64,000 nucleotides of DNA from Marinomonas sp. TW1 (lineage in GTDB: Bacteria; Pseudomonadota; Gammaproteobacteria; Pseudomonadales; Marinomonadaceae), in the NCBI RefSeq assembly GCF_001625355.1, contig NZ_JSEE01000002.1, positions 62,001-126,000 of the forward strand, read 5' to 3'. The notes under the pieces are model-generated. The model saw nothing but the letters and a program-made list of their open reading frames with translations, did not search any database and had not been told where the DNA came from. Both the position numbers and the translations under genes were made by a program. Within the stretch, counting starts at the first letter, position 1. Each line of letters starts with the position of its first letter. Shown here in pieces: positions 5,041 through 39,115 of the stretch.

Positions 5041-5104
5041 ACTGACGCACTTTAAAACACACGCTCAACATCAGCGATTATATTTATTTTTTTAGGATTT
5101 GATT

Positions 5105-5814: not shown

Positions 5815-5819
5815 ACAAG

Positions 5820-5987: not shown

Positions 5988-5998
5988 GCCTCGTGTTT

Positions 5999-6934: not shown

Positions 6935-6941
6935 AAAACAG

Positions 6942-6970
6942 TTTACATCCCTGAGCGCGGTATATATTAT
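6942..6970 (+). promoter_or_regulatory. Promoter of tRNA-Tyr
   Basis: TTTACA (6942-6947) and TATTAT (6965-6970) are spaced by 17 bases and lie just ahead of the tRNA. The following GCCGCGCT is a GC-rich discriminator, as is common for stable RNA promoters under stringent control. AGCGCGG (6954-6960) and CCGCGCT (6974-6980) form an inverted repeat across the -10 region; it has no T run, so it is not a terminator of the upstream gene. Confidence 0.6.
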
Positions 6971-6985
6971 ATGCCGCGCTGCTGT

Positions 6986-7069
<84 letters not shown>

Positions 7070-7380
7070 TTTCTCTTTTTACAAGATAACGTCTTGTTTC
7101 TTATCTAAAAAATTCCTCAAGATCTTAGACACAACCCAACAGCACAAAACACATATTATCCAAGCAACATCCATTTAATACAAACAATAGTTCAAGTCAA
7201 AAAATCAGCTCCTGATATACAGCAAGCTCAGAACACCACAGAGCCCAGCACAGAGCCAAATCCTACCAAACAACAAATCACCAAGCCAAACTCAAAAACC
7301 ACCTTACAACTAAGATCACAACCCTCTACAAGACATAAAAACCAATACAGACCAAAAAGCACAGCATATAGCCATTTTAA
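7070..7380. other. AT-rich intergenic stretch before the octamer array
   Basis: About 310 bases between tRNA-Tyr and the GCTGGAAA array. It is AT-rich with many A runs on the plus strand and has no convincing reading frame, RNA gene or perfect terminator hairpin. Long frames that cross it on the minus strand come only from the open reading of the repeat array. Confidence 0.6.
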
Positions 7381-7684
7381 GCTGGAAAACTGGAAAGCTG
7401 GAAAGCTGGAAAGCTGGAAAGCTGGAAAGCTGGAAAGCTGGAAAGCTGGAAAGCTGGAAAGCTGGAAAGCTGGAAAGCTGGAAAGCTGGAAAGCTGGAAA
7501 GCTGGAAAGCTGGAAAGCTGGAAAGCTGGAAAGCTGGAAAGCTGGAAAGCTGGAAAGCTGGAAAGCTGGAAAGCTGGAAAGCTGGAAAGCTGGAAAGCTG
7601 GAAAGCTGGAAAGCTGGAAAGCTGGAAAGCTGGAAAGCTGGAAAGCTGGAAAGCTGGAAAGCTGGAAAGCTGGAAAGCTGGAAA
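7381..7684. repeat. Octanucleotide tandem array, 38 units of GCTGGAAA
   Basis: 304 bases made of 38 head-to-tail copies of GCTGGAAA. Unit 1 (7381-7388) is canonical, unit 2 (7389-7396) is ACTGGAAA, and units 3-38 (7397-7684) are identical. Because eight is not a multiple of three, every frame on the minus strand stays open in blocks of eight residues (FPAFQLSS), which makes artificial frames of over 100 codons. The array lies between convergent tRNA transcription units and outside any real gene. The perfect identity implies recent expansion or constant homogenisation by slippage, so its length probably differs between strains. Confidence 0.97.
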
Positions 7685-7774
7685 ATAAACAACACCCCAT
7701 AAGCAATCAAGAAAAATCTTAATAAAAGGCAAAATAAAGGGGAAATAGAATTGAAACAAAGAGTAGAGTAAGAA

Positions 7775-7850
7775 TGGTGGGTCGTACTGGATTCGAACCA
7801 GTGACCAATTGATTAAAAGTCAACTGCTCTACCAACTGAGCTAACGACCC
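7775..7850 (-). tRNA. tRNA-Lys (TTT), copy 2 in transcription order
   Basis: A 76-base tRNA with anticodon TTT, encoded CCA and acceptor GGGTCGT pairing with ACGACCC. It is the last gene of the minus-strand tRNA cluster, and its sequence appears identical to the other Lys gene at 8070-8145. Confidence 0.96.
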
Positions 7851-7876
7851 ATTCTTAGTGATATTCTGTATTCTGA

Positions 7877-7953
7877 TGGTCGGAGTAGAGGGATTCGAAC
7901 CCCCGACATCCTGCTCCCAAAGCAGGCGCGCTACCAGACTGCGCTATACTCCG
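7877..7953 (-). tRNA. tRNA-Pro (TGG), copy 2
   Basis: A 77-base tRNA with anticodon TGG, the GGTTCGAATCC T loop and encoded CCA. It is one base away from the tRNA-Asn at 7955-8030, and the pair is repeated at 8259-8412. Confidence 0.96.
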
Positions 7954-7954
7954 A

Positions 7955-8030
7955 TGGCTCCTCGAACTGGACTCGAACCAGTGACCCAATGATTAACAGT
8001 CATTTGCTCTACCAACTGAGCTATCGAGGA
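7955..8030 (-). tRNA. tRNA-Asn (GTT), copy 2
   Basis: A 76-base tRNA with anticodon GTT and encoded CCA. The acceptor stem TCCTCGA pairs with TCGAGGA. It is the upstream member of a Pro-Asn pair that occurs twice in the cluster. Confidence 0.96.
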
Positions 8031-8069
8031 ATTAATCAGATTAGTGCAGAATCTTGCATCAGAGATAGT

Positions 8070-8145
8070 TGGTGGGTCGTACTGGATTCGAACCAGTGAC
8101 CAATTGATTAAAAGTCAACTGCTCTACCAACTGAGCTAACGACCC
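8070..8145 (-). tRNA. tRNA-Lys (TTT), copy 1
   Basis: A 76-base tRNA with anticodon TTT and encoded CCA, matching the Lys gene at 7775-7850. It lies between tRNA-His and the second Asn-Pro pair in transcription order. Confidence 0.96.
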
Positions 8146-8159
8146 AACTATCATAGTAA

Positions 8160-8236
8160 TGGGGTGGACGATGGGGCTCGAACCCACGACCGATGGAATC
8201 ACAATCCATAGCTCTACCAACTGAGCTACGCCCACC
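8160..8236 (-). tRNA. tRNA-His (GTG)
   Basis: A 77-base tRNA with anticodon GTG in GATTGTGATTC. The gene encodes the extra 5' G (position -1) that pairs with C73, a hallmark of tRNA-His. It is the only tRNA apart from Ser that is single in the cluster. Confidence 0.96.
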
Positions 8237-8258
8237 ATTACTAAATGGTAGATAAAAA

Positions 8259-8335
8259 TGGTCGGAGTAGAGGGATTCGAACCCCCGACATCCTGCTCCC
8301 AAAGCAGGCGCGCTACCAGACTGCGCTATACTCCG
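8259..8335 (-). tRNA. tRNA-Pro (TGG), copy 1
   Basis: A 77-base tRNA identical by eye to the Pro gene at 7877-7953, with anticodon TGG and encoded CCA, one base from tRNA-Asn. Confidence 0.96.
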
Positions 8336-8336
8336 A

Positions 8337-8412
8337 TGGCTCCTCGAACTGGACTCGAACCAGTGACCCAATGATTAACAGTCATTTGCTCTACCAACTG
8401 AGCTATCGAGGA
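8337..8412 (-). tRNA. tRNA-Asn (GTT), copy 1
   Basis: A 76-base tRNA identical by eye to the Asn gene at 7955-8030, with anticodon GTT and encoded CCA. Confidence 0.96.
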
Positions 8413-8454
8413 ACTAATTTTATCTTGTTCGCAACACACTTCCTTTAAGGAAGA

Positions 8455-8545
8455 TGGCGGAGGAGGAGAGATTCGAACTCTCGGTAGGCTATTAACCTAC
8501 GCCAGTTTTCAAGACTGGTGCATTAAACCGCTCTGCCACCCCTCC
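8455..8545 (-). tRNA. tRNA-Ser (TGA)
   Basis: A 91-base class II tRNA with a long variable arm. Anticodon TGA lies in CTTGAAA and the CCA is encoded. It is the first gene of the minus-strand cluster and lies just behind the promoter at 8562-8589. Confidence 0.95.
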
Positions 8546-8561
8546 GTTGCGAGCGAGGTGT

Positions 8562-8589
8562 ATATTACTGATTTGAAATTTCAGTGCAA
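8562..8589 (-). promoter_or_regulatory. Promoter of the eight-tRNA cluster
   Basis: Read on the minus strand, TTGCAC and TAATAT are 16 bases apart and are followed after 16 bases by tRNA-Ser. The sequence after the -10 (CACCTCGCTCGC) is GC-rich, as expected for a stringently controlled stable-RNA promoter. Confidence 0.6.
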
Positions 8590-8607
8590 CATTTTTTTGA
8601 AAAAATT

Positions 8608-9687
8608 TTAACTTTTTTCGCTTACATAGTTTTGATCTGCCGCTGCACGAATCCAAACATTGGAATACCAATAGTAACTACGCCCCGTTCTATCCGGCAT
8701 GGTACAGTTAATACGACCACGCCCTGTGCCGAATGCTTTCGGCGCTGTCGCCACTACCTCATAGTCTGAAGCCCATTCTAGAGTGGCTTTTCCCTGGCCA
8801 GAAACATAACAAGCCAAATCTTTGAGACGATATTTACCTTCTTTAAAGGTCAAACGAATCGATACAGGGTTTGCGCCTGCAAAATCCCCTCCAGCATCCA
8901 CATTCAATAATGGCATAGGCTGTGAATTTAGCTTGGTTTTCAAGGTCGACAACTTAGCATAGGCACCTGACGCAGGAAAACGTGGCAAATTCTCAAAATC
9001 GGAATCTGCACTGACCACACCGGATTGCTGGCCAAACGCCATGATGCCCTTGTCGGCCATCATGTCACGAATCGTGTGATCAGACTCACCATATGGGTAA
9101 GCCAACATTTTCGGCGAATGACCAAGGTGTTCATTCAACAAGGCTTCGACGGTATCGACTTCCTTTTCCATGCGCTTAAGCCAAGCCACATCCGTTTCAC
9201 CTTCCAGCTTACGCAACATATAAGGATGGCTGATAGTATGATTGGCAAATACCCCACCAAATTCTTCCATCTCTTTCATTTGTTGCCACGTTAAGAAACT
9301 ACGACTGTTACGCTCAACTGGTTCAGTATTAATGAAAACCGTAAAAGGAAAGTTGCGCTCTTTTAAAATTGGAAAACCCGCTTTATAGATATTACGGTAA
9401 GCATCATCAAACGTAATGGCGACCGCCTTTTCAGGCAAAGGTTTATTGGCTTTTAAATCCTCTAACGCGGTTTTAAGGTCAATCACCTTAAAGCCTGCCG
9501 TTTGAAGATAGTCCATATGCTCAGTAAATTGTTCAGGGGTTACTGAGGTGGATTTCGGTGATGTCGTACTCACATGGTGATATTGCAAAACAGGGATAAA
9601 ATCCTGCGCTTGCGCCATCACACTCATACCCAACGCACCGACCAGCAAACCACAACGCATCACTCCATAGCGAACCTTTGACCACAT
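8608..9687 (-). CDS. Secreted polysaccharide deacetylase (NodB-homology) protein
   Basis: A 359-residue protein with a signal peptide ending in VMAQAQ. The NodB-type deacetylase domain follows: VLQYHHVS near residue 33, the metal and catalytic TFDDA motif near residue 95, and the HTISHP histidine pair near residue 150. MLAYPYGESD is a later family motif. A C-terminal stretch of about 100 residues after the deacetylase core may be a separate carbohydrate-binding or beta-sandwich module. Such enzymes remove N- or O-acetyl groups from polysaccharides in the periplasm or at the surface. The start has AGAGGAAG upstream. No exopolysaccharide genes lie nearby, so the substrate is unknown. Confidence 0.85.
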   Translation of the reverse strand: MWSKVRYGVMRCGLLVGALGMSVMAQAQDFIPVLQYHHVSTTSPKSTSVTPEQFTEHMDYLQTAGFKVIDLKTALEDLKANKPLPEKAVAITFDDAYRNIYKAGFPILKERNFPFTVFINTEPVERNSRSFLTWQQMKEMEEFGGVFANHTISHPYMLRKLEGETDVAWLKRMEKEVDTVEALLNEHLGHSPKMLAYPYGESDHTIRDMMADKGIMAFGQQSGVVSADSDFENLPRFPASGAYAKLSTLKTKLNSQPMPLLNVDAGGDFAGANPVSIRLTFKEGKYRLKDLACYVSGQGKATLEWASDYEVVATAPKAFGTGRGRINCTMPDRTGRSYYWYSNVWIRAAADQNYVSEKS

Positions 9688-9896
9688 GCCACTTCTTCCT
9701 CTTTGTTTAAAGTTTGCCTCATTCTACGCGACCCTTGGGCAAAATGACCAGCTCAGCCCAGAACTTCCAATCAGCACAAACTGTTATGGCCGTTTTACTA
9801 TGCCACTGCATCTACTTTTCTCATCATCAGAACTCTACACTCAAATGATCTTACCCTTCTTACTTACCCCTATTAGACGACACTCTGGAGTGCATT

Positions 9897-11108
9897 ATGA
9901 AAAAAGCTGATTTTTACCAAAACCTCGCCACTCAACTAGAGCAATTAAAAGATCAAGGTTTATATAAACAAGAGCGTCCCATGATTACGCCGCAGTCCAG
10001 CCAAATTACCACGGCAGACCAACAAGCTATGATCAATCTATGCGCCAACAACTATTTAGGGTTAGCCAATGACTCTGACGTGACGCAAGCGGCTCATCGG
10101 GCGTTAGATCAGTTTGGCTATGGCATGGCTTCAGTACGCTTTATTTGTGGCACTCAAAACATACATACCGAACTTGAACAAAGTATTAGCCAATTTTTGG
10201 GTATGGACGACACCATCCTCTACTCATCCTGCTTTGATGCCAATGGCGGCTTATTTGAAACACTCTTAGATAAAGACGACGCCATCATCAGCGATGCCCT
10301 TAATCATGCCAGCATTATTGATGGTATTCGCCTCTGCAAAGCTCAGCGTTATCGCTATGCTAATAATGATATGGCCGAACTCGAAGCGGCTCTACAAGAT
10401 GCGGACAATAATGGGGCAAAAACCAAACTCATCGTCACTGACGGCGTGTTTTCGATGGATGGTATCATTGCAGACCTAAAGAGCATCTGCGACCTTGCGG
10501 ATCAATATCAAGCGTTAGTCATGGTAGATGATTCACATGCAGTAGGCTTTCTTGGTGAACATGGCCGTGGCAGTCATGAATACTGCGATGTGATGGGTCG
10601 CATCGACATTATCACGGGGACATTAGGAAAAGCCTTAGGCGGCGCGTCAGGTGGCTATACCAGTGCGTCTAGAGAGATTGTGGAATGGTTGCGCCAACGC
10701 TCCCGTCCTTACCTCTTCTCGAACGCCCTAGCCCCTGTCATTACCGCGACTAGCCTTAGCATTTTGGAAAAAATACAAGACAATAGCCAAGTACGCAGAC
10801 AGTTAAAAGCCAACAGCCAATATTTCAGAACGGAAATGGCCGCACTGGGCTTCGAGCTGGTAGCAGGAGACCACCCGATCATTCCTGTCATGTTAGGTGA
10901 CGCAAAGCTGGCACAAACCATGGCAAATGCGCTATACAAAGAAGGGATTTTCGTTACTGGCTTTGCGTTTCCGGTCGTTCCAATGGGGAAAGCCAGAATT
11001 CGAACGCAAATGTCAGCAGCACATACACAGGAGCAACTCGATCAAGCCATACAAGCCTTCGCTAAAGTGGGTCGAGAAATGGGCATTATTAAAGGAGAAG
11101 TGCGATGA
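9897..11108 (+). CDS. kbl: 2-amino-3-ketobutyrate CoA ligase (glycine C-acetyltransferase)
   Basis: A 403-residue PLP enzyme of the alpha-oxoamine synthase family. It splits 2-amino-3-ketobutyrate with CoA to glycine and acetyl-CoA, the second step of threonine breakdown through threonine dehydrogenase. Seen are [12 protein letters not shown] near the N-terminus, [11 protein letters not shown] for cofactor binding, and the PLP lysine in GTLGKALGG near residue 245. GGAG lies before the ATG. The stop overlaps the tdh start by four bases, so the two steps are coupled in one operon. Length matches E. coli Kbl (398). Confidence 0.95.
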
Positions 11109-12130
11109 AAACACTGGCCAAACTGCACGCTGAGAAAGGCATCTGGTTAACCCAGACGGAAGCCCCAGAATGCGGTCACAATGATGTGATTATTAAAATT
11201 CGAAAAACAGCGATTTGCGGCACTGATATGCACATTTACCATTGGGATGAATGGTCACAAAACACCATTCCTGTGCCCATGACAATAGGCCATGAATTTG
11301 TTGGTGACATTGTTGAGATTGGCCCTGAAGTAAGCGGTTTTAAAATAGGGGATCGTGTCTCAGGAGAAGGCCACATTACTTGCGGTCATTGTCGCAACTG
11401 TCGCGCAGGTCGTCGTCACCTCTGCCGTAAAACCCTCGGAGTGGGGGTGAATCGCACTGGGGCTTTTGCCGAATATCTGGCCATTCCAGCCAGTAACGCG
11501 TTTAAAATTCCAGATAACATCAGTGATGATTTGGCGGCCATTTTTGATCCTTTTGGTAATGCCGTTCACACGGCTTTATCTTTTGACTTAATTGGTGAAG
11601 ACGTCCTTATTACCGGTGCTGGCCCCATTGGCGCAATGGCTGCCGCTATTGCTAAGCATGTGGGCGCACGCAATGTAGTGATTACAGACATCAACGACTT
11701 CCGTTTAGACTTAGCTAAAAAACTGGGCGCGACTCGCACCGTCAATGTGACACGCGAATCACTCACTGACGTCATGAAAGACTTGGGCATGAGCGAAGGC
11801 TTTGATGTGGGTCTAGAAATGTCTGGTAACGATCAGGCGTTTCGCTCCATGTTGGAAAACATGAATCATGGGGGCAAAGTGGCCATGCTCGGCATTCCGG
11901 GCAACAACACCCTGATTGACTGGAATCAGGTGATCTTCAAGGGTTTAATCATTAAAGGCATCTATGGTCGAGAAATGTTTGAAACCTGGTACAAAATGGT
12001 GGCCATGCTGCAATCTGGTTTAGACATTAGCCCTATTATTACCCATCAATTTTCAGTCGATGAGTTTCAAAAGGGCTTCGATACAATGGGATCGGGTCAA
12101 TCAGGAAAAGTCATCTTGGACTGGCGCTAA
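11105..12130 (+). CDS. tdh: L-threonine 3-dehydrogenase
   Basis: A 341-residue zinc-dependent medium-chain dehydrogenase, the same length as E. coli Tdh. It oxidises L-threonine to 2-amino-3-ketobutyrate with NAD+. Catalytic zinc ligand Cys38 lies in AICGTDMH, the GHE motif follows near residue 60, and the structural zinc site is [15 protein letters not shown]. The Rossmann loop is [18 protein letters not shown]. The start overlaps the kbl stop. Together kbl-tdh allow use of threonine as a source of glycine and acetyl-CoA. Confidence 0.96.
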
Positions 12131-12141
12131 GTGATTAAAAC

Positions 12142-13008
12142 TTGCGTCAAAAACATGATCGCGTTAGCGTGATTCTTTTCGACGCAAAACTGAGCGGTAA
12201 CATGTTAGAAATTGGCACTCAAGCGCATCCGCGTCCACACCAAGATGCGCTCTATATTCTGTTACATCGTCAACAAGTACTGGTCGAAGCTGACCAGCAA
12301 TTTTTAATTCCCTTTCACCATTTTCAACCTAACGCCAATATGGGCGCTGTCTATTGTGGTCAATGGCACGGTCAGGACGTGTTTGTTTGCCGCTTTGACA
12401 CCGTGCCAAAAGGCTTTACGGAAATAGGGTTGCGTGAACTCTTGTTCCTACAGGATCAAGAGCACTACATCTTACTCAGTCGGGCCCATCAATTATCCAC
12501 TTGGGACAGAGATCATCAGTTTTGTGGTCGCTGTGGCACAAGCCTGCAAGAAAAACACCACAAAGAACACACGAAAATTTGCCCGAAATGCCATTTACGT
12601 CATTATCCACGCATTTCACCTTGTATCATCGTCTCCATTCGATATGACAATCGCATTTTGCTTGCTCGTGGCCCACAGGCTCCGAAAGACCGTTACAGCA
12701 ACATTGCCGGATTTGTCGAAGCTGGCGAAACCTTAGAACAAGCTGTCGCTCGTGAAGTCAAAGAAGAAGTCGGCATTGAGATCAACAACATTCGCTATAT
12801 CAGTAGCCAACCTTGGTCATTTCCCCATCAATTGATGGCAGGCTTTTTCGCAGATTACCAGTCTGGCGAATTAACACCTGCGCCTGGCGAAATCGAAGAA
12901 GCAGATTGGTGGCATATAGACGATTTACCCATGATACCAAACGCGGCCACCATATCAGGCCAACTGATATTGCAGCATGTTGATTGGATCAAGACTGAAC
13001 AAAATTAA
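12142..13008 (+). CDS. nudC: NAD(H) pyrophosphatase / RNA deNADding enzyme
   Basis: A Nudix hydrolase of about 288 residues with the NudC layout: an N-terminal domain, a four-cysteine zinc ribbon (CGRCG near residue 128, then CPKC), the Nudix box with GFVEAGE and REVKEEVG, and the NudC-specific SQPWSFPHQLM motif. It cleaves NADH to NMNH and AMP and can remove NAD caps from RNA. The start is uncertain: a TTG at 12142 gives the longest form, and a GTG at 12169 or an ATG at 12202 are alternatives; no strong ribosome binding site decides. It begins 11 bases after tdh and may be co-transcribed with it. Confidence 0.9.
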   Translation: MRQKHDRVSVILFDAKLSGNMLEIGTQAHPRPHQDALYILLHRQQVLVEADQQFLIPFHHFQPNANMGAVYCGQWHGQDVFVCRFDTVPKGFTEIGLRELLFLQDQEHYILLSRAHQLSTWDRDHQFCGRCGTSLQEKHHKEHTKICPKCHLRHYPRISPCIIVSIRYDNRILLARGPQAPKDRYSNIAGFVEAGETLEQAVAREVKEEVGIEINNIRYISSQPWSFPHQLMAGFFADYQSGELTPAPGEIEEADWWHIDDLPMIPNAATISGQLILQHVDWIKTEQN

Positions 13009-16911: not shown

Positions 16912-16947
16912 AAAAGAAAAAAAGGCCCAGTGACAATCACTGAGCCT
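16912..16947 (-). terminator. Terminator after the M16 protease gene
   Basis: AGGCCCAGTGA (16923-16933) pairs with TCACTGAGCCT (16937-16947) with one mismatch and a three-base loop. On the minus strand it is followed by eight T residues. It ends the receptor/protease transcription unit. Confidence 0.85.
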
Positions 16948-16985
16948 TTCGCCAACAAAGAGCATTTAATATTTAACGACCATGG

Positions 16986-19820
16986 TCATTCTGATGACTT
17001 GGGTCGCAAATAAGCCAAGACCTTATTATCAAACTGCAGTGAGTGCACCAATTTTTGGAAGTCATCCAGTGTCAAAGAGCCAGCCAATTGAGACATGTCG
17101 TTTAAATAACGGGCATCGTCAAACTTAACAAAACTCAACTCTAACCTGTGCACTAAGGTTGAACGGAAAGACGTTTTTAAACGGTTGTTTTCCACATCAA
17201 CAAAAGCGGCCTGAGTTTCTGCCACCCACTGAGGCGTAATGAGCGCAGGCAAGTCCGCCAATACTTGCTCCGTTTGCGATGCCAAAGCGTCGACTCGCTG
17301 TGGGTCACTAGAAAATTGAACAGAAAGTTCTGCGCGATTTGATTCACGATTTAGCTCCAGACCCACTCGAACACTGTAAACGCCTTGTACCTTATCGCGA
17401 AGTTGTCGTTTCAACACCTCTTCCAAGCGCTCGCCAAGATAGATGAGCTGTAATGCCAATTGTGGCGACCAAGGCATGTCTTGATAAGCGTACAAACGAA
17501 ACTCCGCTTTTGGTGTTTCATTTATCGGCAAATCTAATATTCTGTGCCCTGCTTTTTGCAACACGGCTTGAGTTTGCCACACTGATGATGCTGTTTGTGT
17601 ATCCACACGCGGAATGCTCGCTAAATGCTTTGCTACGGACATCAGCAGTTCTTGCTCATCCAGACGAGAAACTATGAAGTATTGAACTGGCTGCGCAATC
17701 TGTCGCTCACGAACTTGGTTCAACTCAGCAAAACTAAGCGGCTCAAGCCCCTCTACACTGGGCACTAACTCTTGCTCATCACCAAAACGCGTTTTGGCAA
17801 CCGCCCTTGCAAAAGCCTCATTCACTCTTACCACATCCACTTTGGCATTGCGCAACAACGTCTCCATTACGTCCTGATACACCGGCAGGTTAATGTTTGG
17901 CAGGCTTTGTGACTGATGATAATAAGCGAATAAGGTATCGAAGTTTTCATCTTCTGTGTTGCCTCGGTAAAACACGCTTTGCGCTTTTTGTTTGATGGAC
18001 AAATTTATTTTGTGCGTTTGTCGCCATTTGATTAGCTCTTTTTCTGTCCAACCATAGATGCCAGTCGCTTCTGAGAGTTGTAATGCAATTTGCTCCGCCC
18101 AGTGATTACCCTCTAATACTTGATAACCTGCTTTAGAGTAAGCAGAGAAATAACTAATAGACTCTTCAGCAGGCTGATAAACGTCTGCATAGCGCTCCGC
18201 CAAAACCGTCGGATCCAATAAGGTCAATCCATCACCATTTGATAACTGCCACTCAGACAAACCTAATTGCGTATCACGAGACAACAAACGATACTCCCCA
18301 CTCGAATCACTTTCCGGCAGTACTTTATCTACTACTTGTACGGCTTTTTGCAAGGGATTGTGGGTAGCTTGCAAAGCGTTTGAAAATAGTTTCTCTACTG
18401 CTTCAGCGTTGCCAAGCTCTACTTTCTTTCCGCCAACCGCTTGGCTGTAGAGAATGCGATCCGCGGAACTCAACCAGTCTCGCATTCGCTGATTAACATC
18501 GTCTAAATGAATCGTTGGCAATACTTCAAGCACTTGATTATTAGACATCTCGGGGTCCGCTAAAACTTTATTAGAGGCAACCGCATCTAACATTTTCATG
18601 CTCCATAAACTGCCTCTTTGTTGCGCTGCCTGCTTATTCGTTTCAACTGTATCCATGACTTTTTGTCGTATTGCATCAAAATCAGCTTGGTAAAAACCTT
18701 GCTGTTGAATGGCGGCCAATTCTGACGCCAATACAGACAAACCGAGCGCGTGAAAGCCCGTATCGACATTCACTGAAAAGCCCAGAATATCCACATTTGG
18801 AGACACACTGCCTTTGGTACTTGAAAACGTTCTCACCTGATCGTCTAGCGTGCTGTTTTGACGACGCACTTGTTGCGTTAGTAGACGACGGGCCATGTAA
18901 TCGATCAAACCATTACGTCGCCCTTGTTGTGAATTATCATAATAATTGGCATAACGCAGTAGATAGGCCACGCGATTAATTTTGCCCGCCGCATCCGTTA
19001 ATTGACCGATTTTCAGCGTATCATCTAGTTGCGGGTCTTTTTCATGGCGCGGCGGTAATGGGTTATTTTCAACTTGACCAAACAGTTGCTGTATTTGCTT
19101 AGCAAGATGCTCAGGATTGCTTGGAGTATAGAGGATTAACGCCATGTTACTGGGCTGATACCAGTCCTGATAAAAGGCTTTTAGTCGCTCTACCGAGGTA
19201 TTTTTAATGGACTCTTGAGTACCAATAACAGGACGCTCAGGATACAAAGACCCCACCCGTAATAACGATTTTTTCTCTTCATTAATACGCGTTCTGGGCG
19301 ACAATTTTTTACGCCACTCTTCTTCTATTACCAAACGTTCTTTAATTAAGGATTCATCCTTAATTTGCGCATAAAAAGCCATTTGTTGATAAATTTTCAG
19401 CATAGCGGATAAGCTTTTGTCATCCGTCTTTTTTAGATTCATCATATAGCGCGTATTTTCGCTGTTGGTCATCGCATTAAAGCCCCGACCTTGCTTAAGA
19501 CCAAGTTCAGTTAATGCACTTCTCACGCTCTGCGGGTAATCATCACTTTCGTGGAACACCATGTGCTCAACCATATGTGCCACGCCCAGTTGATCCTGCT
19601 CTTCATCCATGGCACCCGCTTTGACGAATAAGGTCGCCATGGTCAATTGCTCTGGGTAGTCACTCTCTTGTCGTGAGTCAAAAATATAATACTGAAAACC
19701 ATTGTCCAAAGTGCCACGAACAATCCGTTTATCCCAAGACAGCTCCCCCACTTCATTAGCCAACACTGGCTGAACGAGCAAACAAAACAAGACACTCAAA
19801 ACTCGCTGATAAAACATCAT
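16986..19820 (-). CDS. Periplasmic M16 zinc protease (PqqL/FusC-like)
   Basis: A 944-residue exported protease. A signal peptide of about 20 residues (cleavage near QPVLA) is followed by an M16 peptidase domain with the inverted zinc motif His82-X-X-Glu85-His86 (HMVEH). The downstream LVIEEEW helix would hold the third ligand. The single long chain carries the further M16 domains, as in pitrilysin, PqqL (about 930 residues) and FusC. FusC cuts imported ferredoxin in the Pectobacterium periplasm, and PqqL pairs with receptor YddB in E. coli. Here the gene starts 82 bases after the TonB-dependent receptor, on the same strand, and ends at a terminator. I infer that it degrades a protein or peptide brought in by that receptor; the substrate is unknown. 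Confidence 0.85.
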   Translation of the reverse strand: MMFYQRVLSVLFCLLVQPVLANEVGELSWDKRIVRGTLDNGFQYYIFDSRQESDYPEQLTMATLFVKAGAMDEEQDQLGVAHMVEHMVFHESDDYPQSVRSALTELGLKQGRGFNAMTNSENTRYMMNLKKTDDKSLSAMLKIYQQMAFYAQIKDESLIKERLVIEEEWRKKLSPRTRINEEKKSLLRVGSLYPERPVIGTQESIKNTSVERLKAFYQDWYQPSNMALILYTPSNPEHLAKQIQQLFGQVENNPLPPRHEKDPQLDDTLKIGQLTDAAGKINRVAYLLRYANYYDNSQQGRRNGLIDYMARRLLTQQVRRQNSTLDDQVRTFSSTKGSVSPNVDILGFSVNVDTGFHALGLSVLASELAAIQQQGFYQADFDAIRQKVMDTVETNKQAAQQRGSLWSMKMLDAVASNKVLADPEMSNNQVLEVLPTIHLDDVNQRMRDWLSSADRILYSQAVGGKKVELGNAEAVEKLFSNALQATHNPLQKAVQVVDKVLPESDSSGEYRLLSRDTQLGLSEWQLSNGDGLTLLDPTVLAERYADVYQPAEESISYFSAYSKAGYQVLEGNHWAEQIALQLSEATGIYGWTEKELIKWRQTHKINLSIKQKAQSVFYRGNTEDENFDTLFAYYHQSQSLPNINLPVYQDVMETLLRNAKVDVVRVNEAFARAVAKTRFGDEQELVPSVEGLEPLSFAELNQVRERQIAQPVQYFIVSRLDEQELLMSVAKHLASIPRVDTQTASSVWQTQAVLQKAGHRILDLPINETPKAEFRLYAYQDMPWSPQLALQLIYLGERLEEVLKRQLRDKVQGVYSVRVGLELNRESNRAELSVQFSSDPQRVDALASQTEQVLADLPALITPQWVAETQAAFVDVENNRLKTSFRSTLVHRLELSFVKFDDARYLNDMSQLAGSLTLDDFQKLVHSLQFDNKVLAYLRPKSSE

Positions 19821-19902
19821 TCACATCCAAAAAAACGAGAAAAGTAGTGACCAAATTGCGTCACTACTGATAAAAGAGATTTAATCCAACCATTAGCATC
19901 AA

Positions 19903-22665
19903 TTAGAAACGCATTCCCACTTCGATAGTGCTTGAGCGCCCCAGGGTGTAAGAATAAGTATTGGAGTTCGTGGAAGTATCAATGTAGTCATCAAAGACAT
20001 TATTGATCTTTAATTTTAGGTAACCATCCACATCATTGAACAGCTCTGGTCGCCACTCAAACGTGGTGTCTAAGGTAACCAATTGATCAAAGTCTAGATC
20101 ATCGTATATGTCATATGTGCCAGTACTGTCTGTGTAATCCTCGTTCGTGTCTTTCGCTATCGTACCGCCAGCTTTCACATTAATGCGGTTTGACCAAGTC
20201 AGGTTCCATTTAGGAATAAACGTCTCAGTAGAAAACTTAACAGTAAAAGGAATATTAAAATCCGTTTTTGGCAATTGAGTTTCGTAGATCACTTGACCGT
20301 GGTAGTAGATAGAGTCAGAAGAAATCTCCTCTTCGTATGACACATCACTCAACACGTTGGTTTCGCTTTCTTGATAACTGATGGAAAAACCACCGTAAGT
20401 TTGTGTGCCTGCGACTTCAAAAGGTTTCAGTGTTTCGAAACTCAAAGAAAGGGTTTCAGTAAGACTTTCCCCTTCATTTGTGTAGTAATCACCAGTGTCG
20501 TTTTCAGCACGCGTCACTAAATCCTGAGAATCTCGACGTACCCACTTGAGAGTGGCGTTAACGTTGCCCAGTTTTTGCGACACTCCCAACACCAATTCAT
20601 CCGAATAAGGCGTGTCTAAGTCATACTGGTAGAAAGAATCATCGGAATAATTCGTCACACGATTTAAACTACCATCGGAATTGTATCGATACACGGTACG
20701 CCATGAGCGTAACTGACTGTTCACCTCGTAACGGAAGAAATCACGGCCATAGTATCGATTGGCGCCAGTAATCAAATAGGTTTGCTGGTTACTGAAAATA
20801 TCCCAAGTGGCACTAGCGCGGGGAGAAATATCCAAGTTTTCAAGCGAAGTATTGTAGTCGGCTCTCAACCCCAAGTAGTAAGTCCAATCTTTGTGTTTGA
20901 TGGAGTCCTCAACAAAAGCACCGTAAGCCAAATAGCTTTTTTCTAATTTGTTTGCTGCGATTTCACTTTGAAATAACAGATATTCATCATCGTAATCCAC
21001 CACACCATCAGAGTTTGCATCGGCACAAAACTGATTAACAGTGCTAATGCACTTATAAGTTTGACTAATAATGTCGTCTTCTACTTCATAAAACTGCTTA
21101 ATATGTTTTAGCTCTCCACCCAGGTGAAAAGAGTGCTGAAAATCCCCAACAACAAAGGCATTTTGTAACCAGTCCAATGTCAGTGCTGCGGTATTCTGTT
21201 GCTGATTCACATCACCAAAACCACCGGAATAAGGCCAGTCACCATTGGCTGCATCCGCTGGGTGGTTGATATAAATCGAGTCATCGGATGCTAAGGTATC
21301 TTGCGCCTGGTTATAGCTCAAACGGCTAGTCAACAAGCCTTTTTGCGCTTGATAAACCGTATCAAAGGCGATACCTGTCGCTTTGTGGGATTTTACAAAA
21401 GCCGACTCGTATGAACTACTGGTGAGGCCATCGTGATAACGATTCGAATAAAGGACTGACGCACCAAGGTTTAAATCTGAGGTGGCTTTAAAATCAATGC
21501 GCGTTGCGAGATTATCCACAGTATCGTCGTATTCAATTCCCTGACGCCCTAAATCAAGGTTTGATGTCTTCCTCTGATAACTCTGAGCAAAACGAGAGGT
21601 TCCGCGTGAAAAGCTATAGGTCATGCCAGCTTTCTCTCCCAACCTTTGAGCACCTGAGAGGGTATAACGCTGCTTTAGATAATCTGGCGTGTACTCACCT
21701 GCTATAGAGTTCCCTTCCTCCATTTTTTCTTCCAATGACTCATCAGCGTGCATTTCATCCCATTCATCGCGTGAAATCTGATACCTCCAAGAAAAATAAT
21801 CTTCACCATCATAACGTTTGATTTCCGAGCTAATCACACCGCCAAGAAAGCCCCCAAACGCCGCTGGCACGTTGGAATCATAAATGGTCACCGATTCCAA
21901 AATTGCTGGATCCACATAGAAGCTCTGTGATGAGCTACCAGACAACATTTTGAGGCTGGCTGGATTAATTGGGTTAGTATATTTGTCCTCTGAATCCCCA
22001 GGACTCAAGTCATTGTTGGCCGACATGCCATCGATAATATAAGCATTCTGATAATGAGCTTGGCCGTGAATAGAGACTTCATCAGGGCGCATACTGGCAC
22101 TACTAGCAGAGTTACTGGAAGATAGACTGAAACGCGCAGCCGCATTACCTTTCAGCAAGTCAGTTAAATTGGTGCTCTCCCCTGCCATACTTTCTATCTC
22201 AGAAGAACGAATGGTTTTCTCTCCAATCTTGGTCGTATCTTTGGTGTCGTTAATTAATATAGGAGAGAGTTCAATGCCATCTGAGGTTTCCGTTACGCTG
22301 TTCGCATCAACCAAAACAAGGCTGTTACCCGTGCCTTCTTGATAAGATAACCCAGTACCTGACAATAAAAGATCTAACGCTTGTGTGCGCGAGTATTGCC
22401 CTTCTAAACCCTTTGTTCGTTTGCCGCGGGTTAATTGAGCATTCCCACCAATAAACCAACCTGATGTTACTGCGAATTGGTTTAACGCTTTCTCTAACGA
22501 TCCTTCTGGAATACGATAAAATTTATGCTCATTAATAACGGATGCCGCAAGCGCACTATTTGGCACAATAAAAGAAAAGCTTCCTGTTACCAAGCCTATG
22601 CTCAAAGCTAGTAACGTGGGAGTGGTTCGCTGCTTGACACAACGAAAAGAACGGCGGGTTAACAT
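19903..22665 (-). CDS. TonB-dependent receptor with N-terminal STN signalling domain
   Basis: A 920-residue outer-membrane receptor. The signal peptide is long (to about residue 40). An STN domain follows at about 45-120 (FYRIPEGSLEKALNQFAVTS; GLSYQEGTGNSLVLV), then a plug domain at about 140-280 and a barrel ending EVGMRF with terminal Phe. The STN domain is used by FecA-type receptors to signal through FecR to an ECF sigma factor, and both partners lie immediately upstream. An extracellular or loop segment near residues 549-560 has the EF-hand-like pattern DANSDGVVDYDD, flanked by two cysteines (CISTVNQFC). The gene is followed by the M16 protease. Import of a protein or peptide is inferred; an ordinary iron chelate is the main alternative. 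Confidence 0.9.
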   Translation of the reverse strand: MLTRRSFRCVKQRTTPTLLALSIGLVTGSFSFIVPNSALAASVINEHKFYRIPEGSLEKALNQFAVTSGWFIGGNAQLTRGKRTKGLEGQYSRTQALDLLLSGTGLSYQEGTGNSLVLVDANSVTETSDGIELSPILINDTKDTTKIGEKTIRSSEIESMAGESTNLTDLLKGNAAARFSLSSSNSASSASMRPDEVSIHGQAHYQNAYIIDGMSANNDLSPGDSEDKYTNPINPASLKMLSGSSSQSFYVDPAILESVTIYDSNVPAAFGGFLGGVISSEIKRYDGEDYFSWRYQISRDEWDEMHADESLEEKMEEGNSIAGEYTPDYLKQRYTLSGAQRLGEKAGMTYSFSRGTSRFAQSYQRKTSNLDLGRQGIEYDDTVDNLATRIDFKATSDLNLGASVLYSNRYHDGLTSSSYESAFVKSHKATGIAFDTVYQAQKGLLTSRLSYNQAQDTLASDDSIYINHPADAANGDWPYSGGFGDVNQQQNTAALTLDWLQNAFVVGDFQHSFHLGGELKHIKQFYEVEDDIISQTYKCISTVNQFCADANSDGVVDYDDEYLLFQSEIAANKLEKSYLAYGAFVEDSIKHKDWTYYLGLRADYNTSLENLDISPRASATWDIFSNQQTYLITGANRYYGRDFFRYEVNSQLRSWRTVYRYNSDGSLNRVTNYSDDSFYQYDLDTPYSDELVLGVSQKLGNVNATLKWVRRDSQDLVTRAENDTGDYYTNEGESLTETLSLSFETLKPFEVAGTQTYGGFSISYQESETNVLSDVSYEEEISSDSIYYHGQVIYETQLPKTDFNIPFTVKFSTETFIPKWNLTWSNRINVKAGGTIAKDTNEDYTDSTGTYDIYDDLDFDQLVTLDTTFEWRPELFNDVDGYLKLKINNVFDDYIDTSTNSNTYSYTLGRSSTIEVGMRF

Positions 22666-22768
22666 GTGATACTCCGGTAATAGTAATACTTCTTATTTCT
22701 ATTACCGAACACAGTTACGAAAAAGGGACATAAGAAAGGTTATTTATTTTAAGGCATCGCTTAAATTC

Positions 22769-23761
22769 TTATGCGGCTACGACATTAATCCACCAAGGCA
22801 TGATTTTTTCGACCTTAATAGGAAATGCCGTTTCTAACATTGCCAAAACGGTATCAATATCTTGGGTTGGATAGGTTCCAACCACGCGCCAGCTTGCTAA
22901 GCTTGGATCGAGATTAATATGACCATACTGATAACGGCCAATCTCATTAATAAAATCTCTTAAAGACATGTCATCGACAATTAATTGACCACGAGTCCAA
23001 GACTCATACATAGCCAATACTGACTGAGGTTGCATCGAAGCATTTTTATGTAAATGCACCTCTTCTCCAGCATTAATCAGCCTAGACTGTTTCGAGTGCA
23101 AGGAAGAAAAAGACAGTTGTCCATGATAGACAGCCAGTACAGCCTGTTGATCAGATAAATGGCGCAAACAAAAACGAGCTTTTGGGGACGTCAGTTTTAT
23201 GACCGCATGAGGGCAACTCACTAAGAAAGGCCGTTCATCTTGTGTTTCATTTAAATCGAAAAATGCTTCGCCTGAAATCAAAGACATGGCCCGCACGTTG
23301 TCATCAAACTCATCATTTAAGCCTGTCAATGTGTTTAACCAAACATCAGAACCATCTGCTAGCGTGAAATGCTTCACCTCACCAGTCGAAGTATGAAAAT
23401 CGGCCTTCCAAACCGCCACCATAGTGGACAAGCTGACCTTCTCCCATCCAATCCAACCAAGGCCTAACGCCGCCGTGACGCCGAATAAACCTTTAGTAAA
23501 TTGTCGACGTGACACTTGTCTGGCATGACTGTGGTCGAGAACCTGCTTAACGGGAGTGTTAAGCCCCTGTTGTTGAAAAGAGTCAAACATGGCGCCGACT
23601 GATTCAACTTTTGACCAAGCCCGCTGATGCTCTATATCAGCCTCTAACCATTTTTGCCAAGCTTGTTTATCTTGTTCCGATACCGCTTCATCCGACAATA
23701 TGGCAAACCACTCAGATGCCGCTTCTAACTGTTTGAAGTGATTCGATTTTGAATTAATCAT
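22769..23761 (-). CDS. FecR-type anti-sigma factor / signal transducer
   Basis: A 330-residue inner-membrane protein. The cytoplasmic N-terminus has the FecR-associated domain (SEWFAILSDEAVSEQDKQAW, HQRAWSKVE), one membrane segment follows near residues 95-115 (GLFGVTAALGLGWIGW), then the periplasmic FecR domain (HFTLADGSDVWLNTLTGLN, SGEAFFDL) and a C-terminal STN-like lobe. The start at 23761 is an ATGA overlap with the sigma-factor stop; a longer frame to 23791 is not needed. It should hold the ECF sigma factor until the receptor binds its ligand. Confidence 0.92.
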   Translation of the reverse strand: MINSKSNHFKQLEAASEWFAILSDEAVSEQDKQAWQKWLEADIEHQRAWSKVESVGAMFDSFQQQGLNTPVKQVLDHSHARQVSRRQFTKGLFGVTAALGLGWIGWEKVSLSTMVAVWKADFHTSTGEVKHFTLADGSDVWLNTLTGLNDEFDDNVRAMSLISGEAFFDLNETQDERPFLVSCPHAVIKLTSPKARFCLRHLSDQQAVLAVYHGQLSFSSLHSKQSRLINAGEEVHLHKNASMQPQSVLAMYESWTRGQLIVDDMSLRDFINEIGRYQYGHINLDPSLASWRVVGTYPTQDIDTVLAMLETAFPIKVEKIMPWWINVVAA

Positions 23762-24276
23762 GGGGAAAGTTCCGACTGCAACATCACGCACTCAAGCATC
23801 GCCTGGGCCATATAACGTTTTACCATTCGCTCAGAAACAGACAAATGATCAGCGATCTCTCGATACGTTAAACCGTGTAATTGCGATAAAATGAGCGTGT
23901 TTGCTACCTTCATCGGCATTTTTGCAATCAAGGCATCAAGCTGGCACAAAACCTCGATCATCTCTGCGGAATGCTCGGCTGACGGTTGAAAATCTTCTTC
24001 TAAGTTTGTCAGCGACTCAAGCCAAGCCTGCTCAATTTGTTTACGGCGCCAGTGATCAATAAACAAACCTCGGGCAATGGTGGCAAGCAAGCCTTTTGCT
24101 TCCCTACCATTCCATGAGGTATTTGATTTTTTCAGCAGGCGCACAAAAGTATCTTGAGTTAAGTCTGCCGCCAACTCATTGCAACCCAGTTTTTTACGAA
24201 TCCATCCTTTTAACCATTGATGATGCTCAATATAAATGTCTCCAACCCTTTGAGCATTTTCTTGTTCAGGACTCAT
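23758..24276 (-). CDS. FecI-like ECF sigma factor
   Basis: A 172-residue sigma-70 family protein. Region 2 includes AADLTQDTFVRLLKK near residues 38-52, and region 4 is the helix-turn-helix LTYREIADHLSVSERMVKRY. It is the first gene of a four-gene row: sigma factor, FecR, receptor, protease. A Fur-like box lies 58 bases upstream, so the whole signalling row is probably made under iron limitation and then amplified when ligand is present. Confidence 0.93.
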   Translation of the reverse strand: MSPEQENAQRVGDIYIEHHQWLKGWIRKKLGCNELAADLTQDTFVRLLKKSNTSWNGREAKGLLATIARGLFIDHWRRKQIEQAWLESLTNLEEDFQPSAEHSAEMIEVLCQLDALIAKMPMKVANTLILSQLHGLTYREIADHLSVSERMVKRYMAQAMLECVMLQSELSP

Positions 24277-24333
24277 CGCTTGGGAGCACCTCGCCTTATA
24301 TCACTGTATGAAGAGCGAGCAAAATAGCAAAAA

Positions 24334-24348
24334 TGAGAATCAATATCA
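24334..24348 (-). promoter_or_regulatory. Fur box upstream of the ECF sigma factor gene
   Basis: TGAGAATCAATATCA; on the minus strand it matches 12 of 14 bases of the 7-1-7 Fur pattern TGATAAT-n-ATTATCA. It sits 58 bases before the sigma-factor start codon, between this gene and the glutathione transferase gene. Confidence 0.65.
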
Positions 24349-34120: not shown

Positions 34121-34176
34121 CATTAACACTAGCATTGTTATTCATTGATTGGGGAGAAACGCTACTGGAGAAAACG

Positions 34177-36243
34177 ATGAGAAGAAAACTAACCCCATAT
34201 ACCACCTCCCTATTCTGCTGTTCAGTCATATTACCCAGTGCAGCTTTAGCCGAAACAGATGAAGACGTATTTCGTCTTTCGCCCATACTCATCAACAGCC
34301 AAGCCGAAGAGGCCGATGATGACAGCGAATCCATCGTTGCGACAGAACTTTGGGTTGGCGGTAAAGTCGCCACCAGCATTCAAGACACACCGGCGTCGGT
34401 CTCCGTCATCACAGAAAAAGAAATCCAGCAACGCGGAGCTTCCACAACAGAAGAAGTTCTGCAATATACGCCAGGTACTGTAACGGGTTACTACGGCGCC
34501 GACGATCGTACCGATTTCTATCAAATTCGAGGCTTTAACGCTTCCACTTACCGTGACGGTTTGTATCTTGGCTCTCTATTCGACATCCGTGAAGAACCCT
34601 TTGCTTACAAACGAGTTGAAGTGATTCGCGGTGCGAATTCGACCTTATTCGGCCCAGCAGAACCTGGCGGTTCCATTAATTTCGTTAGTAAAACACCAAA
34701 ATTTGATGAATTTTCCAGCGCCTATTTAACCTATGGTTCTCACGACCATAAAGAAATTGGCCTTGATGTGAACAGTACTTTGGACGAGAGTGATACCCTA
34801 GCCTATCGCTTAACGGCTAAGGTGAAAGACAGTGACCGAGAGTACGACTACTCAAAAGACGATTCACAGTTTGTTATGGGCGGCTTAACCTGGCAACCAA
34901 ACAGCCAAACCAGTGCAACACTTCTTGTTGATTACCTAAATACAGATACCAGTGCCAATAGTAGCGGCGCACCGTTTGATAAAGAATACGATAGAAGTAC
35001 TTTCTTTGGTGAGCCAGACTTTAACTATCAAGATGTAGAACGCACCAACATCAGTACGCAACTTAATCACAGCCTAGATAATGGCCTTAACATCTCATCC
35101 AACCTAAGATACACAGATTCAACAAACCGATATGGCTACACTTATATTACGGACACAAGCGATCGAGTAGGCGACACAGTCAATCGCGGTTTCATTGCAA
35201 CAGACACGGCAATACAACAATTTAGCGGTAACTTACTAGGACAATACGACATTACCTTTGATCGTCTCGACAGCAGCACAGTATTTGGTATTGAGTACCA
35301 AGATTCTAGCAAGACTGAGAACAGTGCTTGGGGAACCGCGACCAGTATCGATGTCAATAATATTGTCTATTCTGGCGCACCAAGCGTTCTAAACCCTCTC
35401 GCCGATAAAAAAACCGACTATCAAACGCAAGCCGCTCTATTACAGCAAAACTTAGCATGGGATGATAAATACATTCTTTCCATCGGCGCTCGACACGATG
35501 ACATTGAGGTTTCAGAAAACGATTATCAGAATAATACTGAAACCCAAAGTGACTTTTCTGAAAACACTTTCCGTTCGGCCTTTACCTACAAATTCAACGA
35601 CCAAGTGTCGGCTTACATCAGTCAAGTAGAATCTGTTTCTCCACCTTCTGTAGGCACAGAAATTGTGCGTGGAGACCAAACTGAAATCGGCGCAAAATTT
35701 TCGCCTAGCGATCTAAATGCCATTTTCTCTGTGGCAATTTACGAGCTTGAAAAAAGCAATGTCAACATCGCTGTCGCACAGAATGATGGTTCAATTGATC
35801 GTGAGGTCATCGGCAAAAACCGCGTTAAAGGTGTTGATTTAGAAATGAGAGCAGAACTAACAGAAAGCTTGAGCCTTTCTGGAGGTTATTCTTACATGGA
35901 TTCTAAAGTCACCGAAGACGACTCTTATGAAGGCAAAGATTTCGCGATCACACCACAACATTCCGCTTCCCTGTGGGGACATTACATCTTACCACGTCAA
36001 GATATGTCTGTCGGATTAGGCGCGCGTTATATAGGCTCATACTACTTCGACGCGGCTAACAGCAAAAAAAGTGAAGCAGCAGTGACTCTTGATGCCTCGT
36101 TTAACTACGACATCACCCCAGCGACGCAACTCGCTATAAACGTCAGTAACCTATTAGATGAGCAACACGTTGTTGGATCAGGTACTGCGGATTTTTACAA
36201 TCGAGGCCGCGACATAACCATGACCCTAAACCACGCTTGGTAA
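34177..36243 (+). CDS. TonB-dependent siderophore receptor 1
   Basis: A 688-residue outer-membrane receptor. A signal peptide ends near AALAETD, a plug domain of the ferrichrome/pyoverdine receptor class follows (SIQDTPASVSVITEKEIQQR, FYQIRGFNASTYRDG, VEVIRGANSTLFGPAEPGG), then a 22-strand barrel ending MTLNHAW with an aromatic terminus. It takes up a ferric siderophore using TonB energy. ATG 34177 is chosen because GGAG lies six bases before it and the signal peptide begins there; a longer frame from 34135 is not supported. It ends at a strong terminator. The siderophore is unknown. Confidence 0.9.
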   Translation: MRRKLTPYTTSLFCCSVILPSAALAETDEDVFRLSPILINSQAEEADDDSESIVATELWVGGKVATSIQDTPASVSVITEKEIQQRGASTTEEVLQYTPGTVTGYYGADDRTDFYQIRGFNASTYRDGLYLGSLFDIREEPFAYKRVEVIRGANSTLFGPAEPGGSINFVSKTPKFDEFSSAYLTYGSHDHKEIGLDVNSTLDESDTLAYRLTAKVKDSDREYDYSKDDSQFVMGGLTWQPNSQTSATLLVDYLNTDTSANSSGAPFDKEYDRSTFFGEPDFNYQDVERTNISTQLNHSLDNGLNISSNLRYTDSTNRYGYTYITDTSDRVGDTVNRGFIATDTAIQQFSGNLLGQYDITFDRLDSSTVFGIEYQDSSKTENSAWGTATSIDVNNIVYSGAPSVLNPLADKKTDYQTQAALLQQNLAWDDKYILSIGARHDDIEVSENDYQNNTETQSDFSENTFRSAFTYKFNDQVSAYISQVESVSPPSVGTEIVRGDQTEIGAKFSPSDLNAIFSVAIYELEKSNVNIAVAQNDGSIDREVIGKNRVKGVDLEMRAELTESLSLSGGYSYMDSKVTEDDSYEGKDFAITPQHSASLWGHYILPRQDMSVGLGARYIGSYYFDAANSKKSEAAVTLDASFNYDITPATQLAINVSNLLDEQHVVGSGTADFYNRGRDITMTLNHAW

Positions 36244-36272
36244 ACACAAGCCTTAATAGCCCCCCCCCTTTA

Positions 36273-36743: not shown

Positions 36744-36748
36744 CTATT

Positions 36749-39093: not shown

Positions 39094-39115
39094 TTTAGGC
39101 ATGGTTTAAATCTAT

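Follow-up and report, generated by a model that had tools for sequence, protein, structure and literature searches.

The window analysed here, a stretch of 64,000 nucleotides from Marinomonas sp. TW1 (contig NZ_JSEE01000002.1, positions 62,001 to 126,000), contains an operon-like group of four genes on the minus strand encoding, in order, an extracytoplasmic function (ECF) sigma factor, a FecR-type regulator, a TonB-dependent receptor with an STN domain and an M16 metalloprotease. A first-pass annotation had placed the genes here, and all four were confirmed at the stated places, including the STN domain of the receptor and the 944-residue length of the protease (19820-16986). The genes and the features associated with them are as follows.

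24329..24347, minus strand: Fur-like box before the sigma gene, matching the classical Fur consensus at 15/19 positions on one strand and 14/19 on the other
23758..24276, minus strand: FecI-type ECF sigma factor, 172 aa; Pfam Sigma70_r2 and Sigma70_r4_2
22769..23791, minus strand: FecR-type sigma regulator, 340 aa from a GTG start; Pfam DUF4880 and FecR
22700..22729, minus strand: presumed ECF (FecI-type) receptor promoter, a conserved block between FecR and receptor
19903..22665, minus strand: TonB-dependent receptor of the FusA/YddB family with N-terminal STN, 920 aa; Pfam STN and Plug
22300..22527, minus strand: STN signalling domain, about residues 47-122 of the receptor; Pfam STN at residues 75-119
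20026..22173, minus strand: plug-barrel segment, receptor residues 165-880, corresponding to the segment that appears to be exchanged between other Marinomonas species
20980..21021, minus strand: EF-hand-like acidic loop after a Cys pair, receptor residues 549-562
19843..19868, minus strand: hairpin with T-rich tail in the receptor-protease gap, a possible partial terminator or RNA-stability element
16986..19820, minus strand: FusC-like M16 metalloprotease, 944 aa; Pfam Peptidase_M16 and M16_C
19563..19577, minus strand: HxxEH zinc motif (HMVEH), protease residues 82-86
16920..16950, minus strand: Rho-independent terminator-like site behind the protease, with a 14-pair stem and a T tail

Sequence comparison places the receptor in the FusA/YddB family. 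With a profile built from 34 related receptors, 11 distinct chains are retrieved from the PDB sequences at an E-value of 1e-6 or better, of which only FusA (4zgv; 565 bits, positions 99-915) and YddB (6ofr; 539 bits, positions 141-915) match the plug and barrel. The remaining nine (chains of FecA, FoxA, CntO, PupB and FemA) align with the N-terminal, STN-containing part only. A search with the single receptor sequence agrees with the profile result, its matches to FecA signalling-domain chains lying within residues 47-123. Near full-length matches over the plug and barrel therefore bear out the earlier assignment of the receptor as a FusA/YddB relative, and its sequence places it in that family instead of with the transporters of small siderophores or sugars. 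An extended plug loop has been described for FusA (PMC5095587), and the receptor stretch aligned to it is of similar length. The acidic loop follows the pattern D-x-N-x-D-G-x-x-D-x-x-D-E, which is present in the majority consensus of the 34 relatives; it matches dockerin weakly (E 0.94), is not found at the corresponding aligned place in FusA, and is a possible calcium-stabilised surface loop. The receptor shares 98% identity with a protein assigned to Marinomonas posidonica, which suggests that the window stems from this species or a near relative.

The protease, previously taken to be a relative of FusC and PqqL, gives near full-length matches to these proteins and appears closer to FusC than to PqqL: it matches FusC (6b03) with 415 bits over residues 35-940, compared with 147 bits for PqqL and 136 bits for the M16 protein of entry 9ldy. 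The H, E and H of the zinc motif are invariant in 16 of 16 aligned Marinomonas proteases, as is E161, and the motif is also present in the FusC alignment. The N terminus, read by eye, is signal-peptide-like. Relatives outside the genus share at most 40% identity (for example, 39% in Pokkaliibacter and 31% in Pectobacterium fontis), and the source genome contains one other match, which is partial (28% over residues 56-260).

For the sigma factor, the best NCBIfam scores are those of FecI-type models, below their cut-offs, and the FecR protein scores 200 bits against the NCBIfam FecR model, also below its cut-off. Since these matches are clear yet lie under the curated cut-offs, the two proteins appear to be a FecI/FecR-like pair and not the ferric citrate pair itself. 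The start of FecR lies downstream of the sigma stop in 12 of 15 relatives, so the true start is likely about ten codons downstream of the GTG. Residues 94-100 of FecR form a twin-arginine motif (SRRQFTK) ahead of a presumed membrane segment, and the RR pair is kept in all 16 aligned sequences; E. coli FecR is exported via the twin-arginine translocation pathway.

The Fur-like box was scored against the classical 19-position consensus. Taken alone, it is a moderate match and weak evidence, because the window holds other Fur-like sites that are equally good: 11 hits (8 places, both strands counted) have at least 14 matches, against a mean of 2.65 in 20 block-wise mononucleotide shuffles. It becomes convincing because the block recurs ahead of the sigma gene in 16 of 16 aligned Marinomonas loci (an alignment that leaves out locus L083), with variations that are greatest in L050 and L054. 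The box that the first-pass annotation drew in front of the operon is thus upheld.

A second conserved block, not mentioned in the first-pass annotation, occupies the gap between FecR and the receptor, where TGTCCC is followed at similar spacing by CGGT in all 16 aligned loci; in E. coli, the sequence between fecR and fecA contains TGTCC with TTCGA behind it at comparable spacing. The block resembles the E. coli fecA promoter and is presumably the receptor's own promoter. A strict pattern of the Marinomonas block has a single match in the 3.77 Mb source genome, located before the receptor. Across a survey of 56 genomes, 35 of them of the same genus (source genome included), it matches in eight, six at the operon and two elsewhere (G006 and G055). 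Because the pattern misses seven of the 13 operon-bearing genomes and a reversed-pattern control matched in 5 of the 56, only the single match in the source genome is used as evidence. No fecA-like block is seen before the protease in the alignment of Marinomonas loci, so the protease is probably expressed by read-through from the receptor. The hairpin in between folds in 14 of 16 aligned loci, with differing sequences and no significance test applied; it is absent in L054 and L064 and of a different kind in L050. Behind the protease, the terminator expected from the earlier reading is present at 16950-16920, in a surrounding 12 kb that has 17 terminator-like sites compared with 11.9 in shuffles.

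The four genes stay together throughout the genus wherever the receptor occurs. The receptor is present over most of its length in 13 of the 35 same-genus genomes (in two frames in G010), and in all 13 the sigma, FecR and M16 genes surround it in the same order. A collection of named genomes, in which 80 of 193 relatives were kept (16 Marinomonas and 64 non-Marinomonas), yields a Marinomonas set that overlaps with these 13 and is not additive to them; here the order of sigma, FecR, STN receptor and M16 is found in 16 of 16 loci, L083 having frame breaks. The protease is therefore adjacent to the receptor in every one of these 16 relatives, and this order, together with the fecA-like promoter block, supports the earlier inclusion of FecIR-type genes in the receptor/protease unit. 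Flanking genes vary across the loci. GST-like and major facilitator superfamily (MFS) genes are frequent neighbors and were considered as parts of the system, but the MFS family is inconstant, being absent in five of the 16 loci (L050, L052, L053, L054 and L064), and L050 and L054 have no flanking family in common with the other 14. Because the flanks vary in this way, the four genes were counted as the constant unit.

Some copies may be damaged. L083 (M. pontica LMG 22531) has frame breaks in the sigma and receptor genes at 8360-12710, reflecting either a decaying copy or assembly errors. In P0039 of M. pontica (968 aa) and in P0040 (652 aa), the STN, the plug and a portion of the barrel are joined in frame to the later part of M16, by two different internal deletions between the receptor and protease genes. 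Both proteins are probably remnants, although their frames are open.

Taken together, we consider it fairly probable that the operon is a Fus-type, that is, protease-associated, protein-import system under cell-surface signalling, one that probably senses, imports and cuts a small iron-containing protein of other organisms. The identity of the ligand, its import and cleavage, induction by it, and the binding of Fur and of the sigma factor are what we infer. The ligand would be a protein because of the family, in which FusA takes ferredoxin as its ligand and FusC acts as the protease for it (PMC5095587, PMC6071955), and it would carry iron because of the Fur-like box and the FecI/FecR-type control. 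In the proposed mechanism, Fur would leave the box before the sigma gene when iron is low, and some sigma factor, FecR and receptor would be made. A small iron-containing protein, perhaps ferredoxin from seagrass, algae or cyanobacteria, would then bind the receptor, whose STN domain would signal via FecR and free the sigma factor to fire the fecA-like promoter before the receptor gene, with read-through past the hairpin yielding the protease. The receptor would carry the protein into the periplasm using a TonB protein encoded elsewhere in the genome, and the M16 protease would capture and cut it there, releasing iron.

M16 proteases degrade peptides in general, and the receptor might instead import a peptide or protein to serve as a source of nitrogen or carbon and not for its iron, with the protease as digestive enzyme. 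Grinter et al. (PMC6793856) consider it unlikely that ferredoxin is the substrate in every member of the family, which would suit such a role. However, the Fur-like box is found in 16 of 16 loci and FecI/FecR control has been described for iron carriers (PMC9249621), and we regard uptake for food as unlikely.

The unit combines features of several known systems. Similar to the Fus system of Pectobacterium (FusA, FusB, FusC and FusD), it has a receptor of the same family and a protease of the same M16 type side by side, but it adds STN, sigma factor and FecR, and the TonB-like FusB and ABC transporter FusD of the Fus operon (PMC5095587) have no counterparts beside it. YddA/YddB/PqqL of E. coli, for which Fur control has been reported (PMC6793856), also pairs an adjacent receptor and M16 protease, whereas the E. 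coli-type loci (L085, L089 and L090) have no STN, sigma or FecR match in the stretch covered; the earlier statement that Fus-type relatives lack FecIR control agrees with this. With FecI-FecR-FecA of E. coli the unit shares the sigma-FecR-receptor order, the STN domain and a similar receptor promoter block; it differs in that its plug and barrel are FusA-like and a protease gene takes the place of the FecBCDE transporter genes. In the HasI-HasS-HasR system of Serratia a protein likewise takes part in signalling induction, namely the hemophore HasA, but HasA is self-secreted and stays outside, and no M16 protease is named for this system (PMC9249621).

Outside Marinomonas the arrangement is patchy, though the counts are lower bounds, as many of the 64 loci end at contig ends and the detection models were built from the window genes. 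Sigma factor, FecR and STN receptor adjoin in 10 of the 64 (L086, L087, L088, L091, L092, L095, L101, L103, L105 and L122); L108, on a short contig, has FecR and STN, and L098 has STN alone. All four genes occur in four of the 64 (L088, L091, L095 and L122), the M16 match of L091 being weaker. The nearest non-Marinomonas relatives (25 loci within L055-L084, from Marinobacterium, Oceanimonas, Thiorhodococcus and other gammaproteobacterial metagenome-assembled genomes) have no STN, FecR or M16 match in any of the 25, and L067 and L075 have a distant sigma match on the other strand. This includes the four closest Marinobacterium receptors (L055, L062, L078 and L082), which have no FecR, STN or M16 match nearby. 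The first-pass annotation thus stands as regards the family, the receptor-protease linkage and the presence of FecIR in the unit. The gene order, whose conservation it proposed to survey more widely, is not general in the taxonomic order: all 13 receptor-bearing genomes among the 56 surveyed are of the same genus.

In 18 of the 64 loci, an M16 gene lies close to a FusA-type receptor and neither sigma nor FecR has a match; these include loci of E. coli, Vibrio, Acinetobacter, Shewanella, Gilliamella and Tatumella (in L110 and L115 the M16 gene is only partly covered, and in L107 it is on the opposite strand). In a midpoint-rooted FastTree of 36 M16 proteins, from which hits below 350 bits or about 700 residues were dropped (for example, L089, L110 and L115), the FecIR-linked proteins fall in three places: Marinomonas; L088, L095 and L122 beside Tatumella and Acinetobacter, which themselves have no FecIR matches; and the weaker match of Azonexus L091. 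This distribution points to repeated gains or losses of the linkage between FecIR and Fus-type M16 proteases. A fecA-like promoter was also sought in the 10 FecIR-STN loci and seen, by eye, in L086 alone; pattern matches in L087 and L105 sit at or within the receptor start and were dismissed as chance. L086, from Pseudomonas abyssi, carries two sigma-FecR-STN receptor sets in tandem (3902-12115), and it and L101 are the two of the 10 loci with a rhodanese gene nearby.

Several observations weigh against a protease-associated import system under FecIR control. Six of the 10 non-Marinomonas FecIR-STN loci have no M16 match (L086, L087, L092, L101, L103 and L105), so the coupling of FecIR and M16 is not obligatory. 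No FusB (TonB-like) or FusD (ABC) gene is present among the scanned operon flanks; elsewhere in the source genome, on other contigs, there are three places with TonB_C and a single match to ABC_membrane_2 (49 bits, above its cut-off). A bacteriocin of the Colicin_M family, which could have given a clue to the ligand, has no match in the 56 genomes, but the control genomes are likewise silent and the result is no evidence of absence. Finally, PqqL cleaved neither ferredoxin nor a panel of mammalian iron proteins (PMC6793856), so membership of the M16 family does not fix the substrate.

In another reading, the receptor would carry a small ligand and the protease would either trim FecR or the receptor or destroy bacteriocins entering via the receptor. 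In its favor, FecR proteins are cut by proteases, Prc and RseP (PMC9249621), and the same six loci are examples of FecIR-STN receptors of this family with no M16 match. Against this, the receptor matches the FusA/YddB group alone along its length, and the 18 loci with M16 and without FecIR indicate that the protease is tied more closely to the receptor than to FecR. We therefore judge a signalling or defence role of the protease distinctly unlikely.

A different prey, namely a haem protein or cytochrome in place of an iron-sulphur protein and with the mechanism otherwise the same, is suggested by the neighbors of related receptors. CCP_MauG di-haem enzymes were identified in 6 of the 10 neighbor proteins scanned (L055, L087, L091, L092, L103 and L105). 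Five of these come from the FecIR-STN loci (L087, L091, L092, L103 and L105, with L091 having M16 too), and in L055 the gene is directly upstream of the receptor according to Pfam; CxxCH-bearing proteins of the same kind, recognized by eye, occupy that place in L057 and L059. CCP partners of such receptors have been described and may reduce the imported substrate, according to Grinter et al. (PMC6793856). However, there is no CCP gene among the neighbors of the operon in the window, and ferredoxin is the only substrate proven for the family (PMC5095587, PMC6071955), which makes a haem-containing prey somewhat unlikely.

Comparison of the Marinomonas loci suggests a further property of the system. 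The plug and barrel appear to have been exchanged between species, and the sigma factor, FecR, STN domain and protease mostly follow another, shared history. Between M. rhodophyticola and M. arctica, protein identity is 97% for the sigma factor, 96% for FecR, 99% for STN and 93% for M16, and it is 81% for the plug and 54% and 57% for the two barrel halves. Similarly, M. polaris and strain UCMA 3892 share 99% (sigma), 89% (FecR), 88% (STN) and 90% (M16) identity, with 64% and 61% in the barrel halves, and the barrel of UCMA 3892 is 94-95% identical to that of M. alcarazii. The reverse is seen for M. foliarum and M. profundimaris, with 92% identity in the barrel, 51% in FecR and 60% in STN.

Two-breakpoint fits were made for 10 pairs, picked after viewing the identity matrix and without a null distribution, with the gain expressed as twice the log-likelihood. 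Four of the 10 give large gains with both breakpoints inside the receptor, namely rhodophyticola/arctica (residues 223-888, 59% inside vs 92% outside, gain 984), alcarazii/UCMA 3892 (154-842, 95% vs 76%, gain 461), polaris/lutimaris (173-874, 94% vs 78%, gain 315) and foliarum/profundimaris (187-912, 85% vs 66%, gain 269). The segment spans residues 10-904 in polaris/UCMA 3892 (gain 512), and in foliarum/alcarazii it runs from residue 118 to M16 residue 34 (gain 330). The other four pairs have gains of only 59-99, two with edges outside the receptor; the pairing of the window with M. aquiplantarum (549-774, 94% vs 84%) is among these four.

Trees of the parts conflict accordingly. Six sister pairs are common to the sensor and protease trees; the plug-barrel tree separates three of them with full support and one more, profundimaris/rhizomae, weakly (65). 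In approximately unbiased (AU) tests on protein, neither the sensor tree (p 4e-47) nor the protease tree (p 7e-95) is accepted by the plug-barrel data, and the plug-barrel tree is in turn rejected by both the sensor and the protease data (p 2e-48 and 7e-50), although p-values this small are formal only. Rejection is also mutual between the sensor and protease trees (AU p 7e-36 and 9e-8), which speaks against a simple picture, but their mutual likelihood loss is 116 and 73 compared with 690-1375 for the plug-barrel conflicts, about one-tenth, and the corresponding Shimodaira-Hasegawa p-values are 0.027 and 0.088. Over the 120 pairs of 16 loci, identities correlate at 0.78-0.97 among the sensor genes and M16, at 0.92 between plug and barrel, and at 0.44-0.63 across the two groups; without L050, L054 and L064 (78 pairs), the values are 0.72-0.92, 0.95 and 0.19-0.43. 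An exception is M. colpomeniae, whose STN is unlike the STN of its FecR relatives. The M. pontica proteins P0039 and P0042 have a near-identical STN start followed by different plugs, a pattern that fits the same exchange process.

Receptor loops diverge fast, and adaptive divergence of surface loops could in principle produce a conflict between the plug-barrel and flank trees with no exchange of segments. A fast-changing first barrel half is seen between the window and M. aquiplantarum (77% identity, 41% at fourfold-degenerate sites). These two are mutual nearest relatives in all six blocks, so no whole exchange is apparent there, only a divergent first barrel half. In the rhodophyticola/arctica barrel, however, silent sites fall along with the protein: identity at fourfold-degenerate sites is 28% (n = 46) and 38% (n = 84) in the barrel halves, compared with 80% (n = 40) in STN and 79% (n = 385) in M16. 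Moreover, the alcarazii/UCMA 3892 and polaris/lutimaris pairs share the barrel better than the flanks. Loop divergence is thus a very improbable explanation of the conflict, and exchange of the plug-barrel segment is preferred.

The exchange of blocks suggests that STN must match its FecR and that the protease serves any cargo. More tentatively, the system may consist of a fixed sensor (sigma factor, FecR and STN), a fixed general protease and an interchangeable plug-barrel that recombines between species, so that a new prey protein could be recognized by the signalling system, taken up and digested at once with regulation and protease unchanged.

Elsewhere, the window contains a second iron-type cluster on the plus strand (34135-47125), with TonB-dependent receptors at 34135-36243 and 36841-39093, a protein without a Pfam match, two FecCD permeases, an ABC ATPase, a periplasmic binding protein, two ABC exporter-type proteins and a Fur-like site at 36749 (15/19). 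It is probably a siderophore or haem uptake cluster. Eight tRNA genes lie on the minus strand at 7778-8545, several in equal-score pairs as if duplicated, and single tRNAs are found at 6986-7066 (plus strand) and 47170-47243 (minus strand).

Protease-associated import is already known, and Grinter et al. 2019 (PMC6793856) name a FusA-homologue cluster in Marinomonas that is most likely the receptor family described here. Signalling that involves a protein has a precedent in HasR/HasA. What is apparently new is FecI/FecR-type control of a Fus-type system. Among the literature matches listed, which mostly do not cover subscription papers, there is no Fus-type receptor with FecI/FecR and no receptor-block exchange in Fus-type systems. 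FecI, FecR and STN do not occur in the available main text of PMC6793856, where sigma appears solely as the name of a company and whose Fig. 2 and S1 Table may show such genes, and the words ferredoxin uptake, sigma factor and FecR all occur in the accessible text of PMC6963963, on Pectobacterium.

If the proposed mechanism is correct, these bacteria would sense a foreign protein by cell-surface signalling, and the protease step would be generic. Grinter et al. (PMC6793856) state that the substrates of this Fus-type family are not known and that ferredoxin is unlikely to be the substrate in every case. A receptor that reports its own ligand would provide a direct screen for them, and natural plug-barrel exchange would provide strain pairs with the same sensor and protease that differ in the recognition block, through which specificity could be mapped.

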